Below are positions 1 to 30,587 of a DNA stretch of 31,770 nucleotides, one piece after another. The notes below the pieces were generated by a model that saw only the letters and a list, made by a program, of their open reading frames with translations, made no database searches and was not told the DNA's origin. Numbering within the stretch: the first letter of the stretch is position 1; every line of letters begins with the position of its first letter. Made by a program: the position numbers and the translations under genes. This DNA is from a virus: IMG/VR virus record IMGVR_UViG_3300008110_000344, positions 1 to 31,770 of that record; one strand, written 5' to 3'.

Positions 1-107
1 CATCACGGGTTCGCCCGTGGTGCCCTCACAGTGCATCGGCGTTGTGTCGGTGCATTGTGAGGGCATACAATTGCCCGTTCAACTAACAGACCCGAGGAGG
101 TCACACC
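1..107 (+). promoter_or_regulatory. Structured leader L1 (three hairpins plus Shine-Dalgarno hairpin)
   Basis: Non-coding leader of the 84-aa gene. H1 is 1-22: a 9-bp stem (one G-U) with a UUCG loop. H2 is 23-63: a 13-bp stem (one G-U), 5' strand 23-35 and 3' strand 51-63. H3 is 61-76, GGGCA paired with TGCCC, reusing the last GGG of H2. The Shine-Dalgarno hairpin is GACCC-GAGG-AGGTC at 89-102, with a C-A mismatch next to the loop. ATG is at 108. No promoter is apparent between H2 and the ATG, so the structures probably sit in an mRNA. Its left end coincides with the window edge. Confidence 0.75.
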
Positions 108-362
108 ATGGATGCAAGTATTCACAAAGTAACTGGGTTTCGCATTGAGCGATCCGATGACTCACGAATCAACACAATTGATCTCGTGATTCAGTACGAG
201 GACTTGTCATTTGTCCGTCCCCAATGGGAACAGGACAAGGAGTCATTCGGTTACGCAAAGTTGGAGTCCACAATCACCCTCTTCATCAGTGATGAGGTGA
301 ACATGGACACGGTGTTGTGGCAAGCAATTGCAGATGTCACTTCACAACTTGCCAAAGCGTGA
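108..362 (+). CDS. Hypothetical 84-aa phage protein
   Basis: Unrecognised small protein. The ATG follows a strong GAGGAGG Shine-Dalgarno placed in the leader hairpin, which fixes the start. The sequence has no cysteine, no membrane segment and no motif I know. The first two thirds look beta-rich and the last 25 residues look helical. It stands alone between two structured leaders, so it is probably translated independently. A role in early phage infection is inferred only from its place among other small phage genes. Confidence 0.7.
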   Translation: MDASIHKVTGFRIERSDDSRINTIDLVIQYEDLSFVRPQWEQDKESFGYAKLESTITLFISDEVNMDTVLWQAIADVTSQLAKA

Positions 363-488
363 GTATCAAGCAGTGGGCAGTCATGGCGCAAGCCATGGCG
401 TGCTCGGAGTGCACTGACCCCCATCGGTGCATTCCGAGGACGCAAGTCCATTTAGTAATTCAAAACAGAATCTGAGGAGGTTCTCACC
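363..488 (+). promoter_or_regulatory. Structured leader L2
   Basis: Leader with the same architecture as L1. H1 is 380-399, an 8-bp stem with a GCAA (GNRA) loop. H2 is 403-438, 13 bp with two G-U pairs and a 10-nt loop. H3 is 438-449, GGAC-GCAA-GTCC, sharing G438 with H2. The Shine-Dalgarno hairpin is GAATCT-GAGG-AGGTTC at 468-483, six pairs, two of them changed on both sides relative to L4 and L6. ATG is at 489. Confidence 0.75.
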
Positions 489-632
489 ATGGGTGCAATA
501 ACACCAAAGCAACAGGCATTCATTCGCACGATGCTCTTAGAGCGTGCTTCAACACTCGGTCTTGATGAGGCTGGTGTTGACCAGTACATCATTGATCAGA
601 GCAACAGGCATTCATTCGCACGATGCTCTTAG
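489..632 (+). pseudogene. Truncated 5' end of the DUF6011-like gene (frameshifted by duplication)
   Basis: This ATG is placed 5 nt after the Shine-Dalgarno hairpin of L2, so it is the natural start of the following gene. It encodes MGAITPKQQAFIRTMLLER and so on, then runs into the second copy of a 92-bp tandem duplication. Because 92 is not a multiple of three, translation leaves the frame after residue 37 and stops at 630-632 (47 aa). Removing one repeat copy restores a continuous reading frame with 623-1306. Either the gene is truly interrupted or the duplication is an assembly error. Confidence 0.75.
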
Positions 633-692
633 AGCGTGCTTCAACACTCGGTCTTGATGAGGCTGGTGTTGACCAGTACATCATTGATCAGA
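508..692 (+). repeat. 92-bp perfect tandem duplication
   Basis: Positions 508-600 and 600-692 are identical, a direct repeat with period 92. Both copies encode the same start-proximal segment of the DUF6011-like protein. The copies show no divergence, which fits a very recent event or an assembly or read-overlap artefact. Confidence 0.95.
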
Positions 693-1306
693 AGTTGAAT
701 GAGTTGTCCAGCAAGTCAGCATCGTTCGCCATTGACGCAATCAAGAAGATTGAGGTCAAGCGTGTGGGCACTGACCACTTGCCTAAGGCAGAGCGCACCA
801 TCGTCAACAAGTATGCGAACCCGTGCACATTGTGCGGGCATCCTGTACCTGTCGGTGCTGGTCACGCATTGCTCATCAGTGGCAAGTGGCAGACATTCCA
901 CAAGGCTGGTGAATGCTCATCGGAGCCTGTTGCTCGTCCAGTGACGGTGACCAACGAACTCTTCGGCACACTTGCCGATGGGTTCTACGCACTGTCATCA
1001 ACTGGCGCCAACGATCTCGTGTTCTACGCAGTGAAGACCAACAAGGGCGTGCATAACGCAAGCCTCAAGGGTCAGCGTGCGATCTACATGGTCGTGGGTG
1101 GTCATCGTGACGAGCGACTACACGGTGAGCGTGCAGTGAACGCTGTGAAGCGTCTACTTGCGCTCAGCGATCAAGAACGCATGGATGCACAGGCACTGTA
1201 CGGTCAAGAGATCGGACGGTGTGGTGTGTGCGGGCGTCACTTGACCGATGAGGTCACACGCAAGCGTGGCATCGGCAACGACTGCGCAAAGCGATTGGGT
1301 TTCTAG
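623..1306 (+). CDS. DUF6011-like zinc-binding phage protein (main part)
   Basis: The 227-aa frame begins at an internal ATG inside the second repeat copy; the original start was probably 489. It has two cysteine clusters. The first is CTLCGHPVPVGAGHA with a later C near residue 100. The C-terminal one is CGVCGRHLTDEVTRKRGIG with a final C near the end, typical of DUF6011, a small zinc-ribbon domain found in actinobacterial and phage proteins. The molecular role is unknown; nucleic-acid binding is inferred from the zinc ribbons. It precedes the SNF2 helicase, separated from it by leader L3. As it stands this frame lacks a good ribosome-binding site, so expression of an intact product is doubtful. 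Confidence 0.75.
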   Translation: MLLERASTLGLDEAGVDQYIIDQKLNELSSKSASFAIDAIKKIEVKRVGTDHLPKAERTIVNKYANPCTLCGHPVPVGAGHALLISGKWQTFHKAGECSSEPVARPVTVTNELFGTLADGFYALSSTGANDLVFYAVKTNKGVHNASLKGQRAIYMVVGGHRDERLHGERAVNAVKRLLALSDQERMDAQALYGQEIGRCGVCGRHLTDEVTRKRGIGNDCAKRLGF

Positions 1307-1413
1307 CCCGAGGATGTCACACCGCAAGGTGTGGCGCCCTCACAGCACATCGGGCAACTGGTGTGTTGTGAGGACGCAAGTCCACTAACAATTACCTGAG
1401 GAGGTAACAGACC
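1307..1413 (+). promoter_or_regulatory. Structured leader L3
   Basis: H1 is 1315-1336, 9 bp with G-U pairs and a GCAA loop closed by C-G. H2 is 1338-1373, 13 bp. H3 is 1372-1383, GGAC-GCAA-GTCC, overlapping H2 by two bases. The Shine-Dalgarno hairpin is TTACCT-GAGG-AGGTAA at 1392-1407, six perfect pairs whose outer pairs differ on both sides from those of L1, L2 and L4. ATG is at 1414. Confidence 0.75.
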
Positions 1414-2937
1414 ATGAATACACAACTAGAAGGACTGAGTGCACTGCTATCGGGGCTTGATCGTGTTGCGCCAGCAATCACTGCTGACCCAGCACTCCTT
1501 GCTCTCAGTAGCGCTCACGATGGTGAGGTCGCTGTAGATCTCGCTCAACCTCTCTTCCCGTTCCAGCGTGCTGGCGTGGCGTATGCAATCAAGCAACGCC
1601 GTGTCATCATCGGTGACGAGATGGGGCTGGGCAAGACTCCGCAGGGCATCGCAGTGGCTGTGCAGGCTGTCAATGAGAAGCACAAGGTGCTTGTCGTGGT
1701 GCCTCCGTCATTGCGCACCAACTGGGTTCGCTCATTCAAGCAGTTCGCACCGTGGCTCTCTGTAGCCGTGGTGAAGGGCAGTCGTGTCGGTGCCATACCT
1801 AAGGCTGATGTGGTGATCATTGGTGACAGCAATGTTGACCTGTGGTCACTCAAGTTGGCTGGCAAGTTTGGAGCGCTCATCGTTGATGAGGCACACCGTG
1901 CGAAGAATGCGAAGTCAGGTCGCACTAAGGGTATTGCATACATCGCCAAGTCAATTCCGACTGAGGGGTATGTGGTATTGCTCAGTGGCACCATCATCGT
2001 GAATCGTCCAAGCGAACTCGTTGCTCCGCTGTCAATCATTGACAGACTGGACAGAGGGTTCGGTGGACGCAATGCATTCCTGTTTCGTTACTGTGATCCG
2101 ATCCACAATGGATGGGGTTATGTGTACAACGGAGCCAGCAACACCACTGAGTTGAACGACAAATTGCGTGGCATCTGCTATGTGAGGCGTAACAAGTCAG
2201 ATGTGTTGAAGGAACTCCCAGCGAAGCGCCGTGCTCAAGTGGCGGTAGAGATCACAGAAGATGATCTCGCTACATATCGTCACGCCGAGAATGACTTCCG
2301 TGACTTCGTCATCGCCAATGGTGGTGCCGAGGCATGGCAGAAGGCATCCAAGGCTGAGGTGATCACTCGCCTCAACGCACTGCGCAAGTTGCTCGGTATC
2401 GCCAAGATCCCGTATGTGGTTGAGCATGTAGAAGAACTTGTCGCTCAAGGCGAGAAGGTCATCGTGTTCGCACATCACCGAGATGTCATCGCAGGCTTAG
2501 CCAGTGCTCTTAACAAGCACGGCGTAGTCAAGGTGGCTGGCGGTCTTACCGATGAGCAGAAGCAGGAAGCAGTTGACGCATTCCAACAAGGTGACGCCAA
2601 GGTGTTCATCGGACAATTCACAAGTGCTGGTGTCGGTCTTACATTGACCGCATCATCGCATGTGGTGTTCGCTGAAGTGCCATGGACACCAGCGGAAGCA
2701 GTGCAATCAGAAGACCGTGCACACCGCATCGGTCAAGACAACGCAGTCGTTGCGTGGTGGTTGTTGGCTGTAGATGACACAAGCGAGATCCCAACAGTGG
2801 ACGATCGCATGTGGGCACTACTCAACGCCAAGCACGAGACGGTATCGGCTGTCTTGACAGGTCACGGTGAAGACATGGGTGCAGAGGGTGGAAGCATTAC
2901 GCAAGCCCTCATTGACGGGATCGTTGGTAACGGATAA
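1414..2937 (+). CDS. SNF2-type DEAD/DEAH-box helicase (ATPase)
   Basis: A 507-aa superfamily 2 ATPase of the SNF2 type, expected to translocate on or remodel DNA during replication or recombination. Visible motifs are a Q-like motif (PFQRAGV, about residues 49-55), Walker A GDEMGLGKT (67-75), the DEAH box in IVDEAHRAKN (about 154-163), and motif VI SEDRAHRIGQ (about 431-440), all in normal order and spacing. It has its own structured leader and no coupled partner. A second, clearly different SNF2 helicase lies at 29028-30587 in the replication cluster, so the two probably have separate tasks. Function in this phage is inferred. Confidence 0.92.
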   Translation: MNTQLEGLSALLSGLDRVAPAITADPALLALSSAHDGEVAVDLAQPLFPFQRAGVAYAIKQRRVIIGDEMGLGKTPQGIAVAVQAVNEKHKVLVVVPPSLRTNWVRSFKQFAPWLSVAVVKGSRVGAIPKADVVIIGDSNVDLWSLKLAGKFGALIVDEAHRAKNAKSGRTKGIAYIAKSIPTEGYVVLLSGTIIVNRPSELVAPLSIIDRLDRGFGGRNAFLFRYCDPIHNGWGYVYNGASNTTELNDKLRGICYVRRNKSDVLKELPAKRRAQVAVEITEDDLATYRHAENDFRDFVIANGGAEAWQKASKAEVITRLNALRKLLGIAKIPYVVEHVEELVAQGEKVIVFAHHRDVIAGLASALNKHGVVKVAGGLTDEQKQEAVDAFQQGDAKVFIGQFTSAGVGLTLTASSHVVFAEVPWTPAEAVQSEDRAHRIGQDNAVVAWWLLAVDDTSEIPTVDDRMWALLNAKHETVSAVLTGHGEDMGAEGGSITQALIDGIVGNG

Positions 2938-3121
2938 TCGTGGGCGCTGTAGCGCTTCATGGTCAGCGTTACGAGCGACAGTCGGTGCACTCTTGTCCTC
3001 ACGGGAGCCACCACAGTTCATCACGGGCGCAAGCCCGTGGTGTTCTGACAGTACATTGACACACCGTTGATGTACTGTCAGAACATCACCCGATGTTCAT
3101 TCAAGACCTGAGGAGGTCACC
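2938..3121 (+). promoter_or_regulatory. Structured leader L4
   Basis: The 184-nt gap has no credible gene. H1 is 3019-3042, a perfect 10-bp stem with a GCAA loop. H2 is 3042-3084, a perfect 15-bp stem with a 13-nt loop. H3 is 3081-3098, GAACATC-ACCC-GATGTTC, which reuses the last four bases of H2. The Shine-Dalgarno hairpin is GACCT-GAGG-AGGTC at 3105-3118. ATG is at 3122. The first 80 nt hold only a short GCGC-TGTA-GCGC hairpin near 2944-2955. Confidence 0.75.
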
Positions 3122-3337
3122 ATGTACAACTTAAATATCACTCTCAACGGAGGCATTGATCGCCGTGGATCCGAACTGGACATCCTGTACCAGTTGGTGC
3201 GAGACGGCATGGAAGCGGTTCACAACCGACTCGGTGACGATGGCATCTATCCATGGGGTTCTCTTGAGCAGTATCTCGCTGTAGAGGACAAGGTCATTGG
3301 CGCTCTCAGCAAGATCTGTGACGAGAACGGCTTCTAG
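3122..3337 (+). CDS. Hypothetical 71-aa phage protein
   Basis: Unrecognised. The start is fixed by the leader L4 Shine-Dalgarno hairpin 4 nt upstream. It has a hydrophilic N-terminus, then a mainly helical, acidic body (MEAVHNRLGDDG, VEDKVIGALSKI). There is no membrane segment and only one cysteine. It stands alone between L4 and L5. Confidence 0.65.
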   Translation: MYNLNITLNGGIDRRGSELDILYQLVRDGMEAVHNRLGDDGIYPWGSLEQYLAVEDKVIGALSKICDENGF

Positions 3338-3427
3338 AGAGATCCCCCAGCGCTACAGGCGTGCGGATTCAATTCCGACTGGGGACAAGGCAACACCGCC
3401 GAAGTAAACAAAGCCTGAGGAGGCACC
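3338..3427 (+). promoter_or_regulatory. Structured leader L5 (branched fold plus Shine-Dalgarno hairpin)
   Basis: The usual first hairpins are replaced by a branched fold. The outer stem is CCCCAG (3345-3350) with CTGGGG (3379-3384). It encloses arm CGC-TACAG-GCG (3351-3361) and arm CGGA-TTCAAT-TCCG (3364-3377). The second arm resembles a tRNA T-arm, but no complete tRNA can be drawn. The Shine-Dalgarno hairpin is GCCT-GAGG-AGGC at 3413-3424, with a G-C pair where the other leaders have A-T. ATG is at 3428. Confidence 0.6.
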
Positions 3428-3667
3428 ATGAAAGTAAGTCACGCAATTAAATTATTGAGTGAGATCAATCCTGACGAAGAGATCGCTATCTCTTGGTGGG
3501 AAGCAAACCTGTTCACCATCGGTGACAATGACGAACCCTTGTCGGCAGATTCAGAACAATGGCTCAGGGCTGTTGAAGTGTTTGATGCCAACGGTGGTTA
3601 CGACAGCGTAAACCAAGATGTATGGACATACCTCAATTACGACATCACAGAAGAAGGAGAGTTCTAA
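3428..3667 (+). CDS. Hypothetical acidic 79-aa phage protein
   Basis: Unrecognised. It opens with MKVSHAIKLLSEINPDEEI, a helix followed by an xPDxEI turn that is common at the start of small phage proteins of unknown function. The rest is strongly acidic and rich in W and Y. It is the first gene of a four-gene coupled run (3428-4408). Its stop codon TAA overlaps the next ATG (TAATG). Confidence 0.7.
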   Translation: MKVSHAIKLLSEINPDEEIAISWWEANLFTIGDNDEPLSADSEQWLRAVEVFDANGGYDSVNQDVWTYLNYDITEEGEF

Positions 3668-3870
3668 TGGCAAGTGAAGTGGTAGTCAAATGGTCTTGGG
3701 AAGATGCCAAGGCGATGTACCCACATTGGACTAAGAAACAGTCCATTGAAGCAATGGAAGAAGTTGAAGGCTATGTCCACGAGCGAATCGTGGAACTAGG
3801 CAATGAAGTACTGGAACAAGTCTTGTACGAAATGGTTGAAATGCAAAACGAAATAGAGGAGGAAGAATGA
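3667..3870 (+). CDS. Hypothetical 67-aa coiled-coil protein
   Basis: The start at 3667 is chosen because AAGGAG lies 6-12 nt upstream and the ATG overlaps the previous stop (TAATG). An in-frame earlier start at 3622 would lie inside the preceding gene. The protein is almost entirely helical, with an E-rich second half (EAMEEVEGYVHERIVELGNEVLEQ) ending in EIEEEE, so a coiled coil is likely. Function unknown. Confidence 0.7.
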   Translation: MASEVVVKWSWEDAKAMYPHWTKKQSIEAMEEVEGYVHERIVELGNEVLEQVLYEMVEMQNEIEEEE

Positions 3871-4154
3871 GCAACATCGGAACACCAATCGGTGCATGGG
3901 CAATCATCCAGTGGTATGACTCAGGCATGGAGGACGAGGTATTCATCTCGTTTGGTACATGGAATGAGAACGAGTGGGGAGGTGAGTTTGACTCGTTGGG
4001 CAACAAAGACGATGAGGTCTTCTTCTACTGCGAAGGCGGAGAAGAAGAACTCAAGTCGCTTGTAGGCAACAACGGCGAAGACTTCAATGTCCTGTCGTAC
4101 AACATTGAGTACAAGATTCCACTCGTACTCGCTGACATGGAGGTAGAGCAATGA
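3867..4154 (+). CDS. Hypothetical acidic 95-aa protein
   Basis: Unrecognised. Coupled to the preceding gene by an ATGA overlap, with the Shine-Dalgarno GAGGAGG lying in the Glu-rich end of that gene. It is very acidic (EDEV, DDEV, GGEEE) and rich in aromatics and glycine, probably a small beta-rich domain. No catalytic motif is visible. Confidence 0.7.
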   Translation: MSNIGTPIGAWAIIQWYDSGMEDEVFISFGTWNENEWGGEFDSLGNKDDEVFFYCEGGEEELKSLVGNNGEDFNVLSYNIEYKIPLVLADMEVEQ

Positions 4155-4408
4155 GCAAGGTCATGGTGCTTACTGGGTTGTTGTTAGACAACCACTACGG
4201 CGTCTACAGCGCCATGGAAGCGTGCAGGCTCGCACGAGAACTCGGATGGGATGGGCGCCAGCCCACCGACATTGAGGACTCGTGGTACCAAGAACAGGTA
4301 GCCACTGATTGGCTGAATGAACAGGTCGCTACTGACGGGCACTCATTCGGCTGGCACGAGGGCGGGTACCTCTACATGCCACAGGCATGGTGGGAGGATG
4401 TCGCCTGA
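4151..4408 (+). CDS. Hypothetical 85-aa protein
   Basis: Unrecognised. ATGA overlap with the previous gene and GGAGG upstream. It contains a helical segment, YSAMEACRLARELGWD, and a near-repeat, YQEQVATDWLNEQVATDGH, in which the five-residue EQVAT-D unit occurs twice. It is rich in Trp near the C-terminus. Last gene of the L5 unit. Confidence 0.7.
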   Translation: MSKVMVLTGLLLDNHYGVYSAMEACRLARELGWDGRQPTDIEDSWYQEQVATDWLNEQVATDGHSFGWHEGGYLYMPQAWWEDVA

Positions 4409-4527
4409 TCGGGGCATCACGGGCTACGGCTCGTGGTGCTCTCACAGCACATAAATTCTGTTTGTGTGTTGTGAGGGTACCTAGTACCCGATAAATTAGT
4501 TAATCCCTAAAGACCTGAGGAGGTCAA
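4409..4527 (+). promoter_or_regulatory. Structured leader L6
   Basis: H1 is 4415-4438, 10 bp with two G-U pairs and a UACG (UNCG) loop closed by C-G. H2 is 4439-4477, which can form 17 pairs including G-U around a 5-nt loop. H3 is 4475-4489, GGGTAC-CTA-GTACCC, overlapping H2 by three bases. The Shine-Dalgarno hairpin is GACCT-GAGG-AGGTC at 4512-4525. ATG is at 4528. Confidence 0.78.
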
Positions 4528-4887
4528 ATGATACAACCAGTAATCAAAATGTCTGTTGAAGAATGGGAGGCAAAGTTCAAGCCTGTCAACAATCACCTAG
4601 ATGACAACGCATCGTGGTCAGACGATGAAGGCAACGGCATCATGTTTGAAACATACGGTGCCGAAGTTGACCATGTGTTTGATCAGCCATTGCATTACAC
4701 ATGGACATATGTGGACGGCGAGGAAGGCACATACATCATCGCTGGACGACACATCGTTAACCGCATCGGTTATTTCATAACTGAGAACCAGTGGGACGAT
4801 GACTTCAACACCAAGTATGAAGTTCAAGTAATCAGCAACGAAGACATGTACAAAACAGTGTTAGACCTTGAAGGAGGCAACAAATGA
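4528..4887 (+). CDS. Conserved-looking 119-aa phage protein of unknown function
   Basis: The start follows the L6 Shine-Dalgarno hairpin by 2 nt. The pattern EEWEAKFKP, FETYG, WTYVDGEEG, NRIGYFIT resembles a small family repeatedly seen in early regions of tailed phages, with no established function. It is acidic and soluble, with no Cys or membrane segment. First gene of the four-gene run 4528-5505; its end overlaps the next start (ATGA). Confidence 0.75.
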   Translation: MIQPVIKMSVEEWEAKFKPVNNHLDDNASWSDDEGNGIMFETYGAEVDHVFDQPLHYTWTYVDGEEGTYIIAGRHIVNRIGYFITENQWDDDFNTKYEVQVISNEDMYKTVLDLEGGNK

Positions 4888-5093
4888 AAACAATCAATGT
4901 GGCAGTAGGAGACGAAGTAGAAGTATCCGTGCAGATCTCTCCGATAGAGACATATGACTACTCAGGAATTGTCTCACGAATCAGCGACACCGAGTTGTCA
5001 ATGTGGACTAGCGACAGCCCATACGACACCTACGAGAACGAGCGTGAGATTGACATCGCACTCTCAAAGATCATCGCAGTGGATGTGTTCTGA
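4884..5093 (+). CDS. Hypothetical 69-aa beta-rich protein
   Basis: ATGA overlap and a strong AAGGAGG upstream define the start. Alternating hydrophobic segments (INVAVGDEVEVSVQ, YSGIVSRISDTELSMW, IIAVDVF) suggest a small SH3-like beta barrel, but no family is recognised. Acidic. Confidence 0.65.
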   Translation: MKTINVAVGDEVEVSVQISPIETYDYSGIVSRISDTELSMWTSDSPYDTYENEREIDIALSKIIAVDVF

Positions 5094-5257
5094 TGCAAAG
5101 CGTCATGGAATATTTCAATCGCACGGGAGAGACTCCAACAGCGGTGATCTTGTGTCACCACGACTTCCGTCCAGCGTCTGACTTACCTCTGAATGTGTGG
5201 AGGTGCGTCAAGTGTGCTGAGAACGGCTGGGACAGCCGTTGTGGAGGCGAGCAATGA
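5093..5257 (+). CDS. Hypothetical 54-aa zinc-binding protein
   Basis: Short gene whose ATG overlaps the preceding stop (TGATG) and whose stop overlaps the next ATG (ATGA). It encodes MQSVMEYFNRTG..., with CHH near residue 21, CVKC near residues 38-41 and a final C near 49, enough ligands for one small zinc ribbon. No strong Shine-Dalgarno is seen, so expression probably depends on translational coupling. Function unknown. Confidence 0.65.
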   Translation: MQSVMEYFNRTGETPTAVILCHHDFRPASDLPLNVWRCVKCAENGWDSRCGGEQ

Positions 5258-5505
5258 TCCTCGGTGGTTACCCAGTAGTGCGCAGGGACTTGGTGGAGGC
5301 GAATCTCTTGATCCCCTCTGTCAATACCAATGAGTACTACGGGCAAGAACAACTGTCCAAGATGAAGTACATCGGCAGTGTCAATGAGCAGTTTGAAGAT
5401 GACGACTCGGGCGCTTACATCAAGTTCTATGCACCTGAGGGTCATGTCGTATATCTGTACAACATTGACTTAGATTGGATTGAAACATCGTTAAGCGAGT
5501 CCTGA
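5254..5505 (+). CDS. Hypothetical 83-aa protein
   Basis: ATG at 5254 is preferred over an in-frame TTG at 5239, because GGAGG lies 7 nt upstream and it forms the ATGA junction typical of this run. No known motif is seen. It is acidic with a Tyr-rich middle (YYGQEQ, YIKFYAPEGHVVYLYNIDLDW). Last gene of the L6 unit. Confidence 0.68.
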   Translation: MILGGYPVVRRDLVEANLLIPSVNTNEYYGQEQLSKMKYIGSVNEQFEDDDSGAYIKFYAPEGHVVYLYNIDLDWIETSLSES

Positions 5506-5642
5506 GAGGCTCGTACGAAGGGTGGCATCAGCCTCGGCTGGTGTCATCCCGTGAGTACTCCCCTTGATCCGCCTTGGGGAGTGCTCACGGGGTGAAGCAA
5601 CCTTGCAACACCTGTCAACAACAATGATCTGAGGAGGTCATC
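5506..5642 (+). promoter_or_regulatory. Structured leader L7
   Basis: H1 is 5520-5549, 13 bp with several G-U pairs and a CUCG loop. H2 is 5549-5590, 15 bp (one G-U) with a 12-nt loop. H3 is 5591-5612, GGTG with CACC plus an inner GCA/TGC. The Shine-Dalgarno hairpin is GATCT-GAGG-AGGTC at 5626-5639. ATG is at 5643. The sequence of H2 is unrelated to that of L1-L6 although the layout is the same. Confidence 0.75.
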
Positions 5643-5888
5643 ATGAACAAATGGAATGTAAGTATCTCGCTCCAAACGGGCGTGTATCTAGAAGGAGTCA
5701 ATGCAAGCGACCCTGCAACATTGATCGCAGGCGATCTCAACTACGGCGATGTAGTTACAGCATTGATTGATCAATTGCAATCAGGTCAAGCAACACTTGA
5801 CTGGGTTGTAGAGGAAGTGCAGACACTGGACGGTCGTACCGTTCGGGCTGACGATGAAGACCGTCTATGGCTCGGAGATGCGGTATGA
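5643..5888 (+). CDS. Hypothetical 81-aa protein
   Basis: Start fixed by L7. The N-terminus (KWNVSISLQTGVYLEGVNASDPATLIAGDL) looks beta-rich, followed by a helix (VTALIDQLQSG) and an acidic end. No recognised family. First of a coupled run of ten genes extending to 7956. Confidence 0.68.
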   Translation: MNKWNVSISLQTGVYLEGVNASDPATLIAGDLNYGDVVTALIDQLQSGQATLDWVVEEVQTLDGRTVRADDEDRLWLGDAV

Positions 5889-13225: not shown

Positions 13226-13255
13226 ATACTACAGGGTGAACTACGTGTTTGTCAA
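13226..13255 (-). promoter_or_regulatory. Candidate sigma70-type promoter
   Basis: On the - strand, TTGACA (13255-13250) is followed after 18 nt by TAGTAT (13231-13226), in one of the few real gaps of the left-going region and pointing at the HAD gene. Sequence match only. Confidence 0.5.
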
Positions 13256-14688
13256 TTATCGTCTGAGAGATCCAGCACGTCTGCGTACAGGGCGTTGGTT
13301 GCTTGGGCGCCCATACCGCCACCCTCAAGCATGCGACTAGTTTCTCCAGCCTTGGCACCGAACAAGCGGGACAAGACACCGCTAGATCCTCGGGCTTCCA
13401 TCTCCAGTCGGATGGTGTCACGGGTATCGGAGATGTTTTTGAAGCGATCAATCAAGTTAAACAAACGATCCATTTCCGATGACAACGCTGGGTCAAGACC
13501 CTGTCCTTCAAGTTCTTCTGCGAAGCGGGCGAACATCACACGACCTACTTGCATCTCTAACAAGGCACGCATCGCCGCCTGTAACTGATCCTTTGTACGG
13601 ATCTCAATCGGGAGGTTAAACGCACATTCTGAATGTTCCTTGAAACTAGGACATCTATTGCTCAGATAGCAACTATCGCACTGGCGTAAAGGGTTCGCAT
13701 TGTAACGAATTACGTTGACCTTTTCAGGGTCAATTTCTATAGAATCCCCTTCTGTATCAACGGTTTGCGAGCCAAAGGAGGTGATGGTTTCCATACCCAT
13801 TACTGGTAGCAATACACGCTCACTCTCGTGCCTCTTCGTTGGGGTGTTGATAGCAATAGTTGACCCCCCAGAAACCAAAGAAGTGGGGGTATGTGTTACA
13901 GGGGGTATAGCAACTATCTGCCCTTCATTTGGGGTCAAGATCTCTTGCTCGTCATCGTCATTCATAGGGTCATAGCCCCCAAAAGTATGGGTCTCCCATT
14001 GTTGCCATGAGGCAATTGCAAGGTTACCGATTGCGGATACGTTGTCGTCCATTACAGCATCAAAGTCAATACCAAGTCGGACAATGTCCGCACGATGCTT
14101 TCTGCGTGAGGACTCTTTTTGCTGTGCTGGATATCTGCGCAAGCCGTGACCGTCCCACACCTGTGTCTCTCCGTAGCGAATAGCGCTCGTCCACGAACCT
14201 ACGATTACGCTGTCCCATGGCACACGCTCAATGAGATCGGGCTTTGAAGTAATGCCGACTAACTTGGCGTTCCAGCGCTGTGCAATGGACGCTATGCGCC
14301 CCACATTGCGCCCTGTGACCGCTTTGTCGCTAATCGCCGCCCGACCGTACTTCTGGCAAAGCCATGTCAAACGCTCCAGATCCTGCTCATCGTTCCATAG
14401 CGGGTAGTACTTCTCTCCTAGCCATGAACCCTCATAATCAGGGCGTCCAATTACAATATGTAAACTATCTGCGTGATCACGGACGAACTGGTCAAAGCGG
14501 TTTGTGTCCTCATCGTTTTCTGATGTGTACACAATGATCTCGCCCTCATCAAAGAGGGCACTGAGATCTAATTCCTTCTTCTTGGGAATCGGAAAGTGGG
14601 TCAGGTTGAGAGCATGGCGAGTTACGCCAGCAGTCAACAGCATCTTGCGATACGTCCCCTTTTCCGCTCCGCCAAAGAATACTTTCAT
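13252..14688 (-). CDS. Conserved-type actinophage protein, unknown function, with 4-Cys cluster
   Basis: 478-aa protein in two parts. The N-terminal half (1-235) looks like an alpha/beta domain: MKVFFGGAEKGTYRKMLLTAGV, LVGITSKPDLI, VPWDSVIVGSWTSAIRYGETQVWDGHGLRRYP. A disordered Thr/Pro/Glu linker follows. The C-terminal part has C337-x2-C340-x5-C346-x8-C355, then a helical domain ending GVLSRLFGAKAGE. The Cys spacing could hold Fe-S or zinc. I do not recognise an enzyme; a packaging or DNA-binding role is possible but unsupported. ATGA-coupled to the gene upstream. In-gene inverted repeats at 13856-13917 coincide with the linker. Confidence 0.75.
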   Translation of the reverse strand: MKVFFGGAEKGTYRKMLLTAGVTRHALNLTHFPIPKKKELDLSALFDEGEIIVYTSENDEDTNRFDQFVRDHADSLHIVIGRPDYEGSWLGEKYYPLWNDEQDLERLTWLCQKYGRAAISDKAVTGRNVGRIASIAQRWNAKLVGITSKPDLIERVPWDSVIVGSWTSAIRYGETQVWDGHGLRRYPAQQKESSRRKHRADIVRLGIDFDAVMDDNVSAIGNLAIASWQQWETHTFGGYDPMNDDDEQEILTPNEGQIVAIPPVTHTPTSLVSGGSTIAINTPTKRHESERVLLPVMGMETITSFGSQTVDTEGDSIEIDPEKVNVIRYNANPLRQCDSCYLSNRCPSFKEHSECAFNLPIEIRTKDQLQAAMRALLEMQVGRVMFARFAEELEGQGLDPALSSEMDRLFNLIDRFKNISDTRDTIRLEMEARGSSGVLSRLFGAKAGETSRMLEGGGMGAQATNALYADVLDLSDDN

Positions 14689-23239: not shown

Positions 23240-23567
23240 CGTTTAGTCCTGTCATCTCTATGAAATCGTCTTCTGTTAAAACCACATACCGTCTGTTATT
23301 TAAATCAAATTGTAATACTGGAAGGCGGTCTTCTAATATGGCACGCTCCACCAGTTCTGACAAGTCTTTGTGCTTGAGTGTGATCTGCTTGGCGTTTGTG
23401 GTGAACTTGTTTTCAATCAAGATCTCGCTAGTGCGGACGTCATTCTTCCGTAACCAACCTGAACCTGATCCAGCATTACGACTTCCTTTGTAGGTCTTAG
23501 CGCTTCGCTGTTCCTGCTTCTTGGAAGTCTTGTTGATGGCTTTGCGGTCGTCTCCGCCAAGGATCAT
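23232..23567 (-). CDS. Small PD-(D/E)XK-like protein (resolvase/endonuclease candidate)
   Basis: 111-aa basic protein. RNAGSGSGWLRKNDVRTSEILIENKFTT (about residues 30-57) has the Gly-rich loop, Asp and E-N-K arrangement expected of a compact PD-(D/E)XK active site. A hydrophobic segment follows, LPVLQFDLNNRRYVVLTEDDFIEM. It lies between recA and the Cas4-like nuclease. Probably a structure-specific nuclease; residue assignment is tentative. ATGA overlap with recA. Confidence 0.68.
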   Translation of the reverse strand: MILGGDDRKAINKTSKKQEQRSAKTYKGSRNAGSGSGWLRKNDVRTSEILIENKFTTNAKQITLKHKDLSELVERAILEDRLPVLQFDLNNRRYVVLTEDDFIEMTGLNDG

Positions 23568-24580
23568 TCAAGACCAAACTTTGTAAATACTTCTTTAGTG
23601 ATCTTGTCTCGGAGGTCTGCGTCTTCACGAACTGCTTGGAGCACACCGTCTTTGCCTTGCCACTTCTGATCGCCGTACGAGTAGTAAGCGCCAGCACGAG
23701 TAATCAACTCATACGCAATAGCGATGTTGACAACGTCTTTAGTGGTGTCATAGTCGCCACGGTTGAAGCCTGTGGTGTCTGCAAAGTAGTAATCAACTAC
23801 TGCAACTTGCTGTGGTCGGTAGGTCTTGTTCTTCATGGTGCGAGCCTTAATAGTTTGACCAACAGTCTCGTCCTTGGCTTTAATCCACTCATCACGCTTT
23901 ACTTCAACACGGCAGAAGTAGTGGAAGTTCTTAGCCTTACCACCTGGGGTCGTGCGATTGTCTCCCCACATGACGCCGATCTTCTCACGCCACTGGTTAA
24001 TCATGATGCCTGTGCACTGGCGCTCGTCATGAATCAATGAGCGCTTCTGTGACTTAGAAGACTTGCGGAAGAACTTTCCTGTAAGGCGAGCACCGAGACC
24101 TACAGTGAACTCTTCCATCATCTTTTCTGACTCATCACTTGGTACTAGTGCGGGCAGTGAGTCAATTACAATCATGTCAACAGCACGGTTGTCCAGTGTC
24201 TTGATAACAAGGTCGTACACCTGTTCCATGATGTTGGATTCAACAACCCACAATCGTTCAAGGTCTACGCCGATGCTCTTGGCATAATCAGGTACATACT
24301 CTTCAGCCGCAATCCAAAGTGCTGTGAACTCTGGGTCAAGCGCTTGATTAGCCGCAATGGTTTTGTAAGCAAGAGCAGTCTTACCCGAGGACTCTTCACC
24401 AATGATTTCACTCCATTGGTTAGCGGGCCAACCTCCACCAAGCATGAGGTCGTACGCAAGAATACCTGTAGTGATGCGTGGCATGAGTTCACGAACCTCA
24501 CTACCTTTGACGATGGCTCCATCGCCATACTTCTTGTTCATCGCATTGATGATTGAATTGAGCGACTCGTAGTCTGACAT
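23564..24580 (-). CDS. recA: RecA-like recombinase
   Basis: 338-aa RecA/UvsX-type ATPase. Walker A is GEESSGKT (61-68), the catalytic EE region AAEE follows near 92, and Walker B is MIVIDSLPALVP near 135-146. An L2-like segment, MINQWREKIGVMWGDNRTTPGGKAKNFH, lies near 192-219. It binds ssDNA and drives strand exchange in recombination-dependent replication and repair. GGGGAG lies 7 nt before the ATG. Neighbours are nucleases downstream and a zinc protein and DNA polymerase upstream, a normal phage recombination cluster. Confidence 0.93.
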   Translation of the reverse strand: MSDYESLNSIINAMNKKYGDGAIVKGSEVRELMPRITTGILAYDLMLGGGWPANQWSEIIGEESSGKTALAYKTIAANQALDPEFTALWIAAEEYVPDYAKSIGVDLERLWVVESNIMEQVYDLVIKTLDNRAVDMIVIDSLPALVPSDESEKMMEEFTVGLGARLTGKFFRKSSKSQKRSLIHDERQCTGIMINQWREKIGVMWGDNRTTPGGKAKNFHYFCRVEVKRDEWIKAKDETVGQTIKARTMKNKTYRPQQVAVVDYYFADTTGFNRGDYDTTKDVVNIAIAYELITRAGAYYSYGDQKWQGKDGVLQAVREDADLRDKITKEVFTKFGLE

Positions 24581-24982: not shown

Positions 24983-25328
24983 ACTCTTCTCCGTAAAGTA
25001 CATCGTCCAACATGATTAACACTTTCTCAGACTCAGCAAGTTTGTTTACTACAGCCATGCCAAAGACAGTCAACACCGAAGTGATCTCGTCTTTAGGGGA
25101 AATTAGTTTATCGGACTTCTCTAGGAAATCAGCAAACCAATTTGCTCCTTCTAATATTTCGTTGTAAACCTCAGTTGCCAAGAAGACACCCCAGCGTGAC
25201 AGGATGTCTGCGTATTCAACCTCTCGCACGTCTTCGGAAGGTGGTGAGAAGCCCATAGTCTCGGCGTACCCTTGCCCATCAGGAACTGACAGCATTAAAT
25301 AAAAGTTACGCCGATCTATGTCGGTCAT
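24975..25328 (-). CDS. Hypothetical 117-aa acidic helical protein
   Basis: ATG 25328 overlaps the polymerase stop (TGATG); GTG 25331 is possible. Helical and acidic, with two hydrophobic stretches (WGVFLATEVYNEILEGANWFADFL and VLTVFGMAVVNKLAE). No known family. Its position directly after the DNA polymerase suggests an accessory role, by context only. Confidence 0.65.
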   Translation of the reverse strand: MTDIDRRNFYLMLSVPDGQGYAETMGFSPPSEDVREVEYADILSRWGVFLATEVYNEILEGANWFADFLEKSDKLISPKDEITSVLTVFGMAVVNKLAESEKVLIMLDDVLYGEEYE

Positions 25329-27409
25329 CACTTAGCATCCGCCCAGTTATGAGCGACATTGCATGACACTCGTAGCGGTACGCCCTTGAGGATGACGCCG
25401 TCACCCATTGCTTCCATAAATCGTGGCATGATTGCCTCCCATGAGTCTTCTGGTACTGCGGTCACGATTTCGTCATGAACCTGAACCAACATCCTAGTAT
25501 CAGTTCCTCGTAGGGCTTTTTCAATATCAATCATGGCAATCTTGCAGATGTCAGCCGCACTGCCTTGTACCACTGCGTTAACAGCCTGTCTCTCTGCTCT
25601 GGAGCGCTTCTCATCGTCTGTGGACTTAATATCGGGCAAATGGCGCCTACGACCTGTCAGAGTCGTTACATAGCCTTTGGCACGGGCTTGGGACACCACA
25701 TGACGCTTCCACTGGGTCAAGCCTGAGAATTGCTCGTAGTAGCGGTTGATCATGTACTTGGCACGCTCTTCAGGGATCCCTGTGGTGCGAGCCAGTTTCA
25801 TGTAGCCACCGCCGTAAGCGGTCAAGAAGTTCACACCTTTACCAATCTGACGTTCGTCATCGGTTACTTCGGTAACGTCCTTGCCAAACAGTAGAGCCGC
25901 CGCACCAGCGTGAATGTCAATGTTGTTATTAAAAATGTGAATTAACTCAGGATCCTTAGAGAACATTGCCATCACTCGGAGTTCAATTTGGTCGTAGTCA
26001 GCCACCATCATGGTGTAGCCATTAGGGGCTGTAAACAAACTACGGATACTGGACTCTCGTGGGATGTTCTGTAGGTTCGGGTTAGACGATGACAGACGAC
26101 CTGTTGCAGTTCGGTGCAGGTTGAATGAAGGATGCAAGCGCCCCTTAGACAACTTAGGCAACAATCCATCAACATATGTTGATTTAAGTTTCTGCGTTTC
26201 TGACCATTGCAAGAGCAACGTAATGGCTGGGTGCTTTGACTCAAGTCGCTTTAGTGACTCTTCATCAACTGATGGTGCGCCATTCTTAGTTTCTTTAAAC
26301 GGTTTTAGTCCTAGCCCGCCCTCACGCTTCTTGTTGAACAAGAATGCTTGCTTGTGCTTGGTGGAGTCTGGGTTGAACCCAACAGGTGCGTACTTGGACA
26401 ACTCCAAGAGAATCTCACGCATTTTGCCATCTAACTCGTTACCGAGACTCTTAAGACGGTATTGGTCAACAGGGATACCTTCGTTCTCCATGAGCATGAG
26501 CACACGAAGCACTTCTGAGTCCTGTACCACTACACGCTGTAGGTCGTTGTGGTGCTTTAGATAACTGGATAGGCGCTCGTAGAGCATCCAAGTCCAACGA
26601 GCATCAAGGTGTACATAGCGAGCCGCTACGTCAAATGGCACCTCATCAATGATCTTGCCCAACTTACCTTCACGGAAGTATGCGTTGTGCTTGTCATAGT
26701 TCTGTTGAATCAAACTCTCTAACGAGTACGACATCATGTTCTCGTTAATGGCATGTTGTAACAGCATCGTGTCACGGTACGGACCATCAGGTACGGTGCC
26801 GTAGTACTTGCTTAAAGAACGAGCGTCAAACTTTACGTTGTGCCCTACTTTAATGAGGTCACTAAAGAACAGCGGACGTAGGATCTCTAGTACAACAGAA
26901 CGAGACAGTTGTTCAGGTACTGGTGAGTACTGCGCTGGAATGTGATACTTGGCTTTAGCAGTGGACTCTTGACCGTTCTTGAGAACCTTACGGTAACCCT
27001 CAGGTGGTACGGTACTGCCATCACCAATCTCTTCAGGCACCAAGATAGTGCCATGGCTGTGACCCATAGGGATTGCCCACGACTGTCCTTTAGTAGCGAT
27101 ACCAATCCAAAACACCTCATTGCGCAATGGGTCAAGCGCCAGCATCTTGCGATAGTCACCTTCTATCTTCTCTCGTGCTTTACGAGCAATGTCTGGTGAA
27201 GCGCTCTTTAGTTTTGAGACGTGCGCTTTCCATTCCGCTTCAATGTGCTCAAGAAGGTCGGGATGGCGATCAAGGACTCCACGGGTTTCAAGGTCAAATG
27301 CAAAAGCACCAGTGCCTTGGATAATGGAGACGATTTCATGTAGTTCCTCGGTGGTAGACACAACATGGGGCGCTAAGCGCCCCATGTCATTATCTTTAAT
27401 AGTTGTCAC
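25328..27409 (-). CDS. Family A DNA polymerase with 3'-5' exonuclease
   Basis: 693 aa, the usual phage length without an N-terminal 5'-3' exonuclease. Exonuclease motifs are FDLETRG (near 36), VGHNVKFDARSL (near 205) and YVHLDARW (near 265). Polymerase motifs are A, VADYDQIELR (near 466); B, RQIGKGVNFLTAYGGG (near 518-533); and C, VQVHDEIV (near 645). Replicates the phage genome. GTG 27409 is 3 nt after the upstream stop; neither it nor ATG 27385 has a good Shine-Dalgarno, so coupling to ssb is likely. A strong hairpin (27363-27387) covers codons 8-16. Confidence 0.95.
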   Translation of the reverse strand: MTTIKDNDMGRLAPHVVSTTEELHEIVSIIQGTGAFAFDLETRGVLDRHPDLLEHIEAEWKAHVSKLKSASPDIARKAREKIEGDYRKMLALDPLRNEVFWIGIATKGQSWAIPMGHSHGTILVPEEIGDGSTVPPEGYRKVLKNGQESTAKAKYHIPAQYSPVPEQLSRSVVLEILRPLFFSDLIKVGHNVKFDARSLSKYYGTVPDGPYRDTMLLQHAINENMMSYSLESLIQQNYDKHNAYFREGKLGKIIDEVPFDVAARYVHLDARWTWMLYERLSSYLKHHNDLQRVVVQDSEVLRVLMLMENEGIPVDQYRLKSLGNELDGKMREILLELSKYAPVGFNPDSTKHKQAFLFNKKREGGLGLKPFKETKNGAPSVDEESLKRLESKHPAITLLLQWSETQKLKSTYVDGLLPKLSKGRLHPSFNLHRTATGRLSSSNPNLQNIPRESSIRSLFTAPNGYTMMVADYDQIELRVMAMFSKDPELIHIFNNNIDIHAGAAALLFGKDVTEVTDDERQIGKGVNFLTAYGGGYMKLARTTGIPEERAKYMINRYYEQFSGLTQWKRHVVSQARAKGYVTTLTGRRRHLPDIKSTDDEKRSRAERQAVNAVVQGSAADICKIAMIDIEKALRGTDTRMLVQVHDEIVTAVPEDSWEAIMPRFMEAMGDGVILKGVPLRVSCNVAHNWADAK
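27363..27387 (-). promoter_or_regulatory. Perfect 11-bp hairpin at the start of the DNA polymerase gene
   Basis: ACATGGGGCGC and GCGCCCCATGT pair perfectly around a 3-nt loop. The hairpin begins 22 nt after the GTG start, and the alternative ATG at 27385 lies inside the stem. No U-run follows on either strand, which argues against simple termination. Likely to slow translation initiation or act as an mRNA processing or pausing site. Confidence 0.7.
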
Positions 27410-29027: not shown

Positions 29028-30587
29028 TTATACCTCCGAGTTTGATAAAAAGTCAGACAAGGTACCAATCGTTAATTCGTACTTTCCCTGACTGTCGTAG
29101 TTTCCATCAATAAAGGCTTCGTTAATACCTCGCTTCTGCTGAAGCATTTCGTATTGACGTTCCTCAATTGATCCCTTCATAACGAAGGATGCAACTGTAA
29201 CATGGGGGTGTACTGAAGACAACCTGATAATTCGGGCTTCTCTTTGATCCAGTTTTCCAGCGCTCCACGGCAGGTCATAAGAGATGAGGTAGTTGGCGTT
29301 GGGCAAGTCCACGCCGTAACCCCCAGCGTCTGACGATAAGAACAGGCGGGTATGCGGGTCAGTAGCAAACTGTTGTTTGGCGGCGTCTCGCTCTTCGGCG
29401 GTCATACCGCCCATGAACAGCACGCTGTTGGTGGTTGACGCCATAGCCTCTTGTATGAGTTTAAGGTTTCGTTTAAAGAATGAAAAGAGAACAACCTTGC
29501 TGGTCGTATCACTATCCAAGATGTTCTTGATGTATTCCATGACCGACTCTAACTTCGGTGACTTTGCTGTTTCACTCAGCCAACCTAGTTTGATGATGTT
29601 GTCTGCATAGAGACTTCCTGTGTCGCCACCAGTGGTTCGGTAGTTATGGGCAGACTCATACACAAGCGCTGGGTTGTCACAGAGCATACGAAGAATGGTG
29701 AGGCGGGACATAATCTGCCCTTGTGCCTCACCACCCTTGTCTCCCCCGTTGTAATGAGACCACAAATCAAAACCACGTCCGTGTTGACTAATGGCGTTTT
29801 GTATCTCCTTTACAAGGTCTTTAGTAATTGCACGGTATGCATTGGCACCAGCGTTGTCAAACACAACTGGTATGAGTTGATGCACAACCTTTGGAAGTTG
29901 GTCAGCGATGTCAGCACGGGTCTTGCGAACCATTACTTCGGTCAGGCTTTCTTGCAGACTCTTTAAGTTGCGGTAGCGAACTGGTTTACCGAAATGGTCA
30001 CGCTGAATGAAGGTACGGTCAAAGATGTCAAAGCGACCAAGAACAGTCTTGTCAACAAACTCCATAATAGAGAACAATTCTTCTGGCTTGTTCTCAATGG
30101 GCTGACCTGTTAGTGCAAAGCGATAGTGACACTTGGAACCAAGTCGCTTAAGCAACTTGGAACGTTTTGCTTTTGGTGACTTAATGATAGTTGCTTCGTC
30201 AATCACCATGGCGTTGCATTTCAGCGCCAAGAACTCTTTCTCATCGTTAACCAACATCTCAGGGTTGACAATGACGTACTTGCACATACGTGCCATGCGC
30301 CAAAGGTTTGCACGAGCCGCTTTAGAGCCATCAATAACAATTGCTTTAGAGTCTGTGAACTTCTTGATTTCACGAAGCCACTGGAACTTCAATGATGATG
30401 GTACGACAATGGCAACACGGTCAATCTCTTTGTTATCAAACAAATGTTCTAGCGTTGAAAGAGTGGTTGGTGTCTTTCCAGCACCCATCACCATGGCAAG
30501 CAACATCTGACCACGGTCGCTCATGCGCTCCATGGCTTCTTGTTGGAACGGGTACAGTTCGCCCTTAAAGGTCACGTCATCCACCAT
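29028..30587 (-). CDS. Second SNF2-type helicase (replication cluster)
   Basis: 519-aa superfamily 2 ATPase: YPFQQEAMERM near 12, Walker A VMGAGKT (33-39), DEAT box VIDEATIIKS near 128-137, FALTGQPIEN (motif III) near 155, and motif VI DQREARIIRLSS near 456-467. It replaces the usual DEAH with DEAT and differs clearly from the + strand helicase. Probably remodels forks or branched DNA together with primase, DnaB and RecA. Starts 16 nt inside the primase gene; GTG 30575, which forms a GTGA junction, is an alternative start. Confidence 0.9.
   Translation of the reverse strand: MVDDVTFKGELYPFQQEAMERMSDRGQMLLAMVMGAGKTPTTLSTLEHLFDNKEIDRVAIVVPSSLKFQWLREIKKFTDSKAIVIDGSKAARANLWRMARMCKYVIVNPEMLVNDEKEFLALKCNAMVIDEATIIKSPKAKRSKLLKRLGSKCHYRFALTGQPIENKPEELFSIMEFVDKTVLGRFDIFDRTFIQRDHFGKPVRYRNLKSLQESLTEVMVRKTRADIADQLPKVVHQLIPVVFDNAGANAYRAITKDLVKEIQNAISQHGRGFDLWSHYNGGDKGGEAQGQIMSRLTILRMLCDNPALVYESAHNYRTTGGDTGSLYADNIIKLGWLSETAKSPKLESVMEYIKNILDSDTTSKVVLFSFFKRNLKLIQEAMASTTNSVLFMGGMTAEERDAAKQQFATDPHTRLFLSSDAGGYGVDLPNANYLISYDLPWSAGKLDQREARIIRLSSVHPHVTVASFVMKGSIEERQYEMLQQKRGINEAFIDGNYDSQGKYELTIGTLSDFLSNSEV

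Follow-up and report, generated by a model that had tools for sequence, protein, structure and literature searches.

Interchangeable folded RNAs of different designs between the small genes of a freshwater phage family

Location and layout of the leaders

The window analysed here is a virus record of 31,770 bases (IMG/VR record IMGVR_UViG_3300008110_000344), on whose + strand small genes are preceded by leaders built of compact folded RNAs. In the freshwater phage family to which it belongs, the small genes are separated by interchangeable folded RNAs of different designs, one of which is a known self-cutting RNA. This arrangement suggests that the phage cuts a single long message up into shorter ones, and another of the designs may be a self-cutting RNA of a new kind.

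An earlier note on the window, made from its letters, had claimed six multi-hairpin leaders; all six are real, and a seventh, at 3338–3427, was overlooked. The six follow a double-hairpin design, termed type A below, in which a first hairpin (H1), a long second hairpin (H2) and, in leaders 2, 4, 6 and 7, a third hairpin (H3) stand ahead of a hairpin that holds the Shine-Dalgarno (SD) sequence. All of them lie on the + strand. Leader 1 (1–119) is incomplete because the first base of the window truncates it; H1 spans 1–22, H2 23–63 and the SD hairpin 89–102, and its open reading frame (ORF) begins at 108. Leader 2 (363–491) comprises H1 (382–397), H2 (403–438), H3 (438–449) and an SD hairpin (468–483) before the ATG at 489. 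Leader 3 (1307–1416), with H1 at 1316–1335, H2 at 1338–1373 and the SD hairpin at 1392–1407, precedes a helicase gene (1414–2937) that is of SNF2 type according to Pfam. Leader 4 (2985–3124) contains H1 (3019–3042), H2 (3043–3083), H3 (3081–3098) and an SD hairpin, followed by the ATG at 3122, and leader 6 (4409–4530) contains H1 (4414–4439), H2 (4441–4475), H3 (4475–4489) and an SD hairpin, followed by the ATG at 4528. Leader 7 (5506–5645; H1 5524–5545, H2 5545–5594, H3 5597–5606, SD hairpin 5626–5639, ATG 5643) has a divergent type A layout. The overlooked leader is of another design, type B: a three-way junction of the form B1 occupies 3341–3390 (P1–P1' 3345–3384, with a UUCAAU hexaloop), and its downstream part (3389–3427) holds a short hairpin (3389–3400) and an SD hairpin (3413–3424) before the ATG at 3428.

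In a scan of IMG/VR, 50 relatives of the helicase of the window were found, of which 36 (L001–L036) show 68–100% identity over the best segment; among named phages helicase identity stays below 60%, and the first 8 kb of the window have no match there. GAGGAGG-before-ATG sites, the mark of the SD hairpin, were mapped in 13 records, with positions given for three near-full-length ones. In the record of 94,977 bases all 12 sites lie on a single strand at 19.5–28.3 kb, and in that of 97,131 bases 13 sites lie on a single strand at 25.8–34.9 kb, with 2 elsewhere. The 14 sites of the 94,948-base record, again on a single strand, fall at both of its ends (1.4–2.9 and 90.6–94.7 kb), and these two stretches are one if the record is circular. 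The leaders therefore mark a single small-gene array that is about 9 kb long.

Type A leaders

The six leaders fold as the earlier note described (z −5.0 to −6.8), and for each of them none of 200 dinucleotide shuffles was as stable. The second hairpin is longer than the 13–17 base pairs given there, since 19–25 pairs with at most one mismatch are present in 194 of the 218 type A leaders of the group; as a control, the longest stem in 400 random stretches of 125 nucleotides (nt) had a median of 9 pairs and a maximum of 16. The threshold for a type A call was a hairpin of 13 pairs or more; as 14 of the 400 random stretches also pass it, a few calls are false (for example, the one at 808 of L001). 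Leader 7 keeps the common order of parts, and a type A covariance model, from which rows of its kind had been excluded, detects the five other leaders of the window and gives no match to leader 7 at E ≤ 1; it is a longer variant. Its SD hairpin is present in the centroid and in one of two computed minimum-energy folds, and absent from the other.

Covariation, which the earlier note had proposed as a check in homologous phages by means of a covariance model, is present. The type A alignment consisted of 42 of 65 type A rows; leader 7-like rows, further rows whose H2 is longer, weak ones and near duplicates had been removed by hand. Across relatives the stem sequences vary while pairing is kept, as had been claimed: double-sided changes occur in 20 of 27 pairs and 96.1% of cells are paired, a fraction that is partly due to construction because the copies were found through their hairpin. 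When the partners were slid, pairing fell to 31–48% and the doubly changed cells of the 42 distinct copies from 197 to at most 30; shuffling gave 47.3 such cells, and none of 500 shuffles reached any of the five measures. Two features are nearly or fully fixed, namely a U·G wobble in H1 (37 of the 41 copies with letters there) and a CA/UG step in H2 (42/42).

The upstream hairpins of the 65 distinct type A rows contain 179 G·U against 6 A·C oppositions, with a detection that is symmetric for both. A DNA palindrome gives no such bias, and selection therefore acts on the transcript. Together with the covariation in the upstream hairpins, in the type B element and in the SD hairpin, this bias bears out the earlier claim of selection on RNA structure. 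It also bears on the possibility that the elements are operators or promoters with dyad symmetry at the DNA level, like the extended start-associated sequences (ESAS) of cluster K mycobacteriophages. Such sites likewise lie upstream of starts, with inverted repeats similar in size, and putative SigA-like promoter hexamers are reported in the ESAS of Adephagia (PMC11373665). However, the strand asymmetry of type A contradicts this explanation, and DNA operators were rejected on that ground; the corresponding test is weak for type B (39 G·U vs 2 A·C, or 6 vs 2 without the top P2 pair). Furthermore, the type A model scores the reverse strand lower (leader 4, 31.1 vs 80.4 bits), and no + strand sigma-70-like site was found by scanning within any leader. 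The scan gave 2 sigma-70-like pairs in 7 kb on both strands, with 6.1 expected; a − strand site ends at 4528, the edge of leader 6. A DNA-level role is thus very improbable.

Type B element

The type B element is arranged in the order P1 (about 6 pairs), P2, UG linker, P3 with the UUCAAU hexaloop, A, P1' and AC. The folding energy of the window leader at 3338–3427 is unremarkable (z −1.9; 10 of 200 shuffles as good), and it is convincing only through its relatives. The B1 element of the window scores 63.9 bits (E 2.3e-15) against the type B model, of which the window row is itself a part. The underlying alignment comprised 64 copies, that is, 63 of 84 distinct cores hand-picked for diversity plus the window row. 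Because rows were selected by the UUCAAU loop, a GUG-like linker, at least 5 pairs in P1 and at least 3 in P3, the paired fraction and the constancy of loop and linker partly reflect this selection, which leaves the variety of pair types and the slid controls unaffected. The alignment contains 178 doubly changed cells, against 47.5 in shuffled and at most 66 in slid controls. Double-sided changes occur in 10 of 14 pairs, a count equalled by 18 of 500 shuffles, and the measure of pair types was reached by 3 of 500. The outermost pair of P3 is unpaired in 35 of the 64 rows; RNAalifold without constraints recovered P1 and P2 and, of P3, the two inner pairs and a third that is shifted. Twelve unpaired positions are near-invariant, 8 of which are imposed by the search rule.

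With a strict structural filter, 123 type B matches were found in 2.6 Mb and none in the reversed sequence, the 123 being 24 distinct sequences from overlapping loci. A looser filter applied to the window and L001–L036 yielded 93 copies on the + strand and 0 on the − strand, with an average of 0.2 in shuffles. All 91 array leaders that were typed as B by sequence alone pass the pairing thresholds, independently of how the alignment rows had been selected. A pseudoknot between the UUCAAU loop and an upstream AUUGA, visible by eye in some copies and absent in others, was dropped, and a permuted hammerhead was rejected since the element contains neither a CUGANGA nor a GAAA core. Variants were also noticed. 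In L026, SD hairpins are preceded at about 2050–2600 and 2850–2960 by type B-like elements whose loops are different (UUCACGA, UUCGUGA) and by a hammerhead-like element in which stem II is flawed. In L133 (174–1171), three type B elements lie about 300 nt apart, two of them with a UUCGAU loop, and a weak fourth match is present (15 bits, E 0.4).

Hammerheads in sister phages and interchange of elements

The hammerhead is a self-cleaving RNA of established chemistry. By structural search, L032 and L051 (the latter from the record of L036) contain 15 copies of a complete type II core (CUGANGA ... GAAA ... UH, stem II open, stems I and III closed), each on the + strand. Their predicted cut site lies 51–62 nt before the ATG, directly upstream of the SD hairpin. 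In sequence and structure these elements have the features of type II hammerheads, and self-cleavage is predicted for them. In the window no hammerhead core of type I, II or III was found, and its elements, being without hammerhead features, are therefore not filed as hammerheads.

The slot between upstream stop and SD hairpin is modular, with at least three designs, of which the multi-hairpin layout is one. Typing of 338 SD-hairpin leaders gave 215 of type A, 91 of type B, 16 hammerheads (one of them flawed, in L026), 2 of a type B variant, 10 with no element and 4 that were too short. Among 39 groups of similar downstream genes, joined at 35% similarity or more and hence possibly including paralogues, 11 carry more than one element type, and still 11 when type A is limited to at least 17 pairs. 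The gene after leader 2, at 97.9% protein identity, has type B in L022–L024 and type A in L031; when L022 and L031 are aligned, their sequences become similar again shortly ahead of the SD hairpin, which is kept while the element differs. Another gene, at 57–59% protein identity, is preceded by a hammerhead in L032 and L051, by type A in L021 and by type B in L007, and the helicase gene, which follows type A leader 3 in the window, follows type B in L026.

When both flanking genes are orthologous, the element type is the same in all 276 distinct pairs. It agrees in 208 of 234 pairs in which the upstream gene alone is orthologous and in 209 of 291 in which the downstream gene alone is. The sequence similarity of type A elements is 0.68 with only the upstream gene shared, 0.71 with only the downstream gene and 0.52 with neither; the corresponding values for type B are 0.77, 0.68 and 0.64. 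On these comparisons the element belongs to the gap between genes and not clearly to either neighbour.

SD hairpin

Each of the seven window leaders closes with a hairpin that carries GAGGAGG in its loop and 3' arm, shortly before the start codon. Its alignment included 67 of 76 distinct SD windows; the nine omitted are two from L027 and the seven from L011, of which five have another register and two the usual one. The outer two pairs covary, with 42 doubly changed cells against 12.1 in shuffled and at most 23 in slid controls; the number of doubly changed pairs (2) does not discriminate, being reached by 499 of 500 shuffles. The inner three pairs are nearly fixed by GAGGAGG itself. Of the 354 GAGGAGG-before-ATG sites found on the group's + strand, 331 allow a stem of 4 pairs or more, compared with 30% for random flanks under the same lenient rule. 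In L011 (6062–11706), the SD hairpin is found in another register at five genes (CCTAGAGGAGG instead of CCTGAGGAGG), as if the hairpins were homogenised within that genome.

This frequency would be expected if the structures were landing sites of a phage or host RNA-binding protein that times the translation of the array genes with no cutting, the SD hairpin being a switch to which the upstream hairpins add affinity. The near-fixed wobble of H1 and the invariant step of H2 are also features that a binding site might have. Such control of translation is the chief alternative, and yet we regard it as unlikely: the slot is also taken by hammerheads, type B is present in 35 loci that have no SD hairpin motif, having been selected for its absence, and in the case of L022 and L031 the element changes while the SD hairpin stays.

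Occurrence outside the group

Pattern scans gave 44 type B copies in these 35 loci, which form 12 DNA clusters. For every one of the 44, an ORF of 40 codons or more ends 5–21 nt before the element, and an SD-like match and a start codon follow (median distance 47 nt); in 41 cases what follows is an SD-like match with an ORF of 30 codons or longer. Of 2100 places picked at random from these loci, 311 satisfied the stop condition, 764 the lax start condition, and 57 the stop together with an ORF of at least 30 codons. At least one ORF with weak to moderate similarity to ORFs of the window group (29–59% identity in the best matches shown) is present in 23 of the 35 loci, and the phages are therefore distant and not proven unrelated.

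The term leader, used in the earlier note, is apt in that the elements sit before starts. It is less so outside the group, where they begin 5–21 nt behind the upstream stop, and in the group the type agrees with the upstream orthologue at least as often as with the downstream one. Both observations would suit elements that are 3' parts of the upstream gene, acting as terminators, attenuators or stability hairpins with no cutting. However, the sequence similarity follows the upstream gene in type B and not in type A, and hammerheads occupy the slot. In addition, the leaders lack U-runs and + strand terminator-like sites, consistent with the earlier view that they are unlikely to be simple terminators, and because no + strand promoter-like site serves the next gene, termination would silence it. 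A role as 3' parts is accordingly improbable.

A second form of the element, B2, with a GUCRUA hexaloop, was found by means of the type B model and a pattern scan. On 31 locus strands, several element types or several B elements occur together. In L071, L072, L074 and L147 a hammerhead, B2 and B1 stand within about 800 nt, and in L059 and L293 a hammerhead adjoins a B element; apart from L293, which lies outside the clustering, these loci belong to one DNA cluster. L112 and L146 contain both a hammerhead and type B far apart, the hammerhead being without leader-like context. Reversed-sequence controls yielded one B1, zero B2 and one hammerhead. In 120 loci selected for hammerheads, 182 of 209 hammerheads are followed within 90 nt by an SD-like match and a start codon, compared with 717 of 2090 random places, and among the matches listed, L150, L196, L231, L242 and L264 have 6 or 7 hammerheads on one strand of one stretch. 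Ribozyme arrays, as predicted from sequence, thus occur in several environmental phage contigs. In the genomes of 84,980 prokaryote species, two type B patterns gave no match. Among named phages, single-element matches at E 2–3 were treated as chance, and four longer stretches had no match.

With respect to databases, the window and seven relatives gave no match to Rfam 15 at gathering scores. Looser limits (E ≤ 10 for L032 and L009, E ≤ 5 for L071, L081, L133 and L105) brought up nothing but hammerhead models, two microRNA models and one lncRNA model; the matches to the last three (E 0.06 to 3.1) were put down to chance. Within the stretches searched, no family of Rfam 15 corresponds to type A, B1 or B2, and literature searches listed nothing recognised as type A or B.

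Proposed processing of the message

Based on the covariation at the RNA level, the position of the elements and their interchange, we infer cutting, its agents and its effect on expression as follows. The elements would be intercistronic RNA-processing modules at which the polycistronic message is cut, a reading to which we assign a probability of roughly 0.6. A promoter at the head of the array may give rise to one long message for about a dozen small genes, and the compact folded RNA between the upstream stop and the next SD hairpin would be the place of cutting. After the cut, the upstream piece would end 3' in a hairpin, and the downstream mRNA would begin with a structured 5' end. Different elements could serve this purpose and take each other's place by recombination. 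The chemistry by which type II hammerheads cut themselves is known, and such self-cutting is predicted for the present copies. Since types A and B share the gap with the hammerhead and replace it at orthologous genes, the simplest view would be that they too cut or are cut. The two long helices make type A a candidate for a double-strand RNase, most likely one such as host RNase III, and its stem length fits an RNase III site of about two turns. Type B three-way junctions may self-cleave or be recognised by a nuclease, and their small size and near-invariant unpaired positions would fit either. The SD hairpin would be a part of its own, associated with the downstream gene, and would hold the ribosome site in a weak stem of 4–7 pairs. 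Of the roles offered in the earlier note, processing that separates cistrons is best supported, since sister phages hold hammerheads in the slot; a binding site for a protein and timed translation are less so.

Several observations weigh against this processing model. Type A lacks an unpaired conserved core of the ribozyme kind, and outside the group it was absent from 100 hammerhead loci in a model search and gave one unconvincing match (E 0.68, L264) in other loci. The exchange of designs at one slot could reflect a need for any stable structure. In L032, where the core is complete by structural search, there was no hammerhead match at the Rfam gathering score, one site reaching 28.5 bits against Hammerhead_II (gathering 37) and one 30.9 bits against Hammerhead_3 (gathering 48.5). 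Six loci make up the neighbourhood of hammerhead and type B, and five of them fall into a single DNA cluster together with six further loci. In the 120 hammerhead-selected loci the type B model gave no convincing match (one at E 0.97 among 100 of them and none among the other 20). Finally, many loci are near copies, so that the counts are not independent.

A more specific proposal is that B1 and B2 are two forms of an undescribed class of small self-cleaving ribozymes of about 45 nt, which would cut polycistronic mRNA of environmental phages between genes and be exchanged with hammerheads and RNase-cut type A. We put it forward tentatively and consider it possible but doubtful, its odds being reduced because the type B phages are not shown to be unrelated and the hammerhead-selected loci gave no convincing type B. 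If it is true, type B is a short and easily tested candidate ribozyme class, and each new class is notable; a 2023 account counts nine well-studied classes of self-cleaving RNA and one proposed (PMC10085705). If the processing model is true, message cutting would be a modular part in phages with several interchangeable solutions, which would explain the roughly 90–140 nt spent per gap in an array of tiny genes and would offer natural insulators for synthetic operons. Even without cutting, the covarying type A, B1/B2 and SD hairpin, with no Rfam match in the stretches searched, remain to be explained.

Other features of the region

Upstream of the array, a region at 4540–4860 of L011, 4440–4760 of L035 and 5950–6260 of L027 contains the DnaA-box-like TTATCCACA and TGTGGATAC, two or three TGACnnTCGTCA repeats and TTGACA, followed by a plain SD sequence. 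It looks like a regulated promoter and is perhaps a replication origin as well. In the window, a direct tandem duplication of about 92 bp (508–691) lies at the start of the DUF6011 gene, whose listed ORF starts at 623, not 489; the frame seems shifted, and an assembly artefact is possible. Long ORFs lie on the − strand from about 9400 to 31770, among them a family A DNA polymerase (25328–27409). A UvsX-like recombinase (23564–24580) and a second helicase (29028–30587) were also noted, together with a − strand relative of queuine tRNA-ribosyltransferase (13252–14688, phrog_887), a family that in phages can modify DNA with deazaguanine. No tRNA or tmRNA was found in the window.

Relation to known systems

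Phage T7 has RNase III processing sites between its early genes, and type A resembles them in placing long hairpins between the genes of a polycistronic phage message. Unlike those sites, type A is a covarying two-hairpin design with a near-fixed wobble and an SD hairpin, and its cutting is putative. A search for new ribozymes near hammerheads reportedly found twister-sister, pistol and hatchet. Type B likewise occurs in gaps beside hammerheads, in one phage cluster; in contrast to those classes, it was not seen in hammerhead-selected loci, and it has no Rfam match in the stretches searched.

Start-associated sequences (SAS) and ESAS, as described in the reports on cluster K mycobacteriophages (PMC3203893) and cluster EF Microbacterium phages (PMC7302621), share with the present leaders a conserved SD-containing motif at many starts and further conserved sequence upstream, including 17-bp inverted repeats in cluster K. 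In contrast, the stems of the window group covary and are G·U-biased, with no + strand promoter-like hexamers found in the leaders, whereas Pope et al. see little support for hairpins in cluster K mRNA (PMC3203893). The 13-bp SAS consensus, with up to 2 mismatches, has no match in the window. The comparison with cluster K drawn in the earlier note is thus apt as an analogy, without the SAS consensus or SigA-like hexamers on the + strand of the leaders.

The closest likeness is to the clustered type II hammerheads of phages and prophages (Perreault et al. 2011, PMC3088659), which, according to that work, are active in vitro on fragments of about 2 kb and were proposed to cut long phage RNAs into mRNAs of gene or operon length. 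As there, self-cleaving RNAs stand between phage genes, several in a row, and the cores of L032 and L051 are complete. The window group differs in that its slot also holds types A and B, which have no hammerhead core, in that it adds an SD hairpin and in that types are exchanged at orthologous genes. By analogy, the system of the window group would work like the prophage hammerhead clusters.

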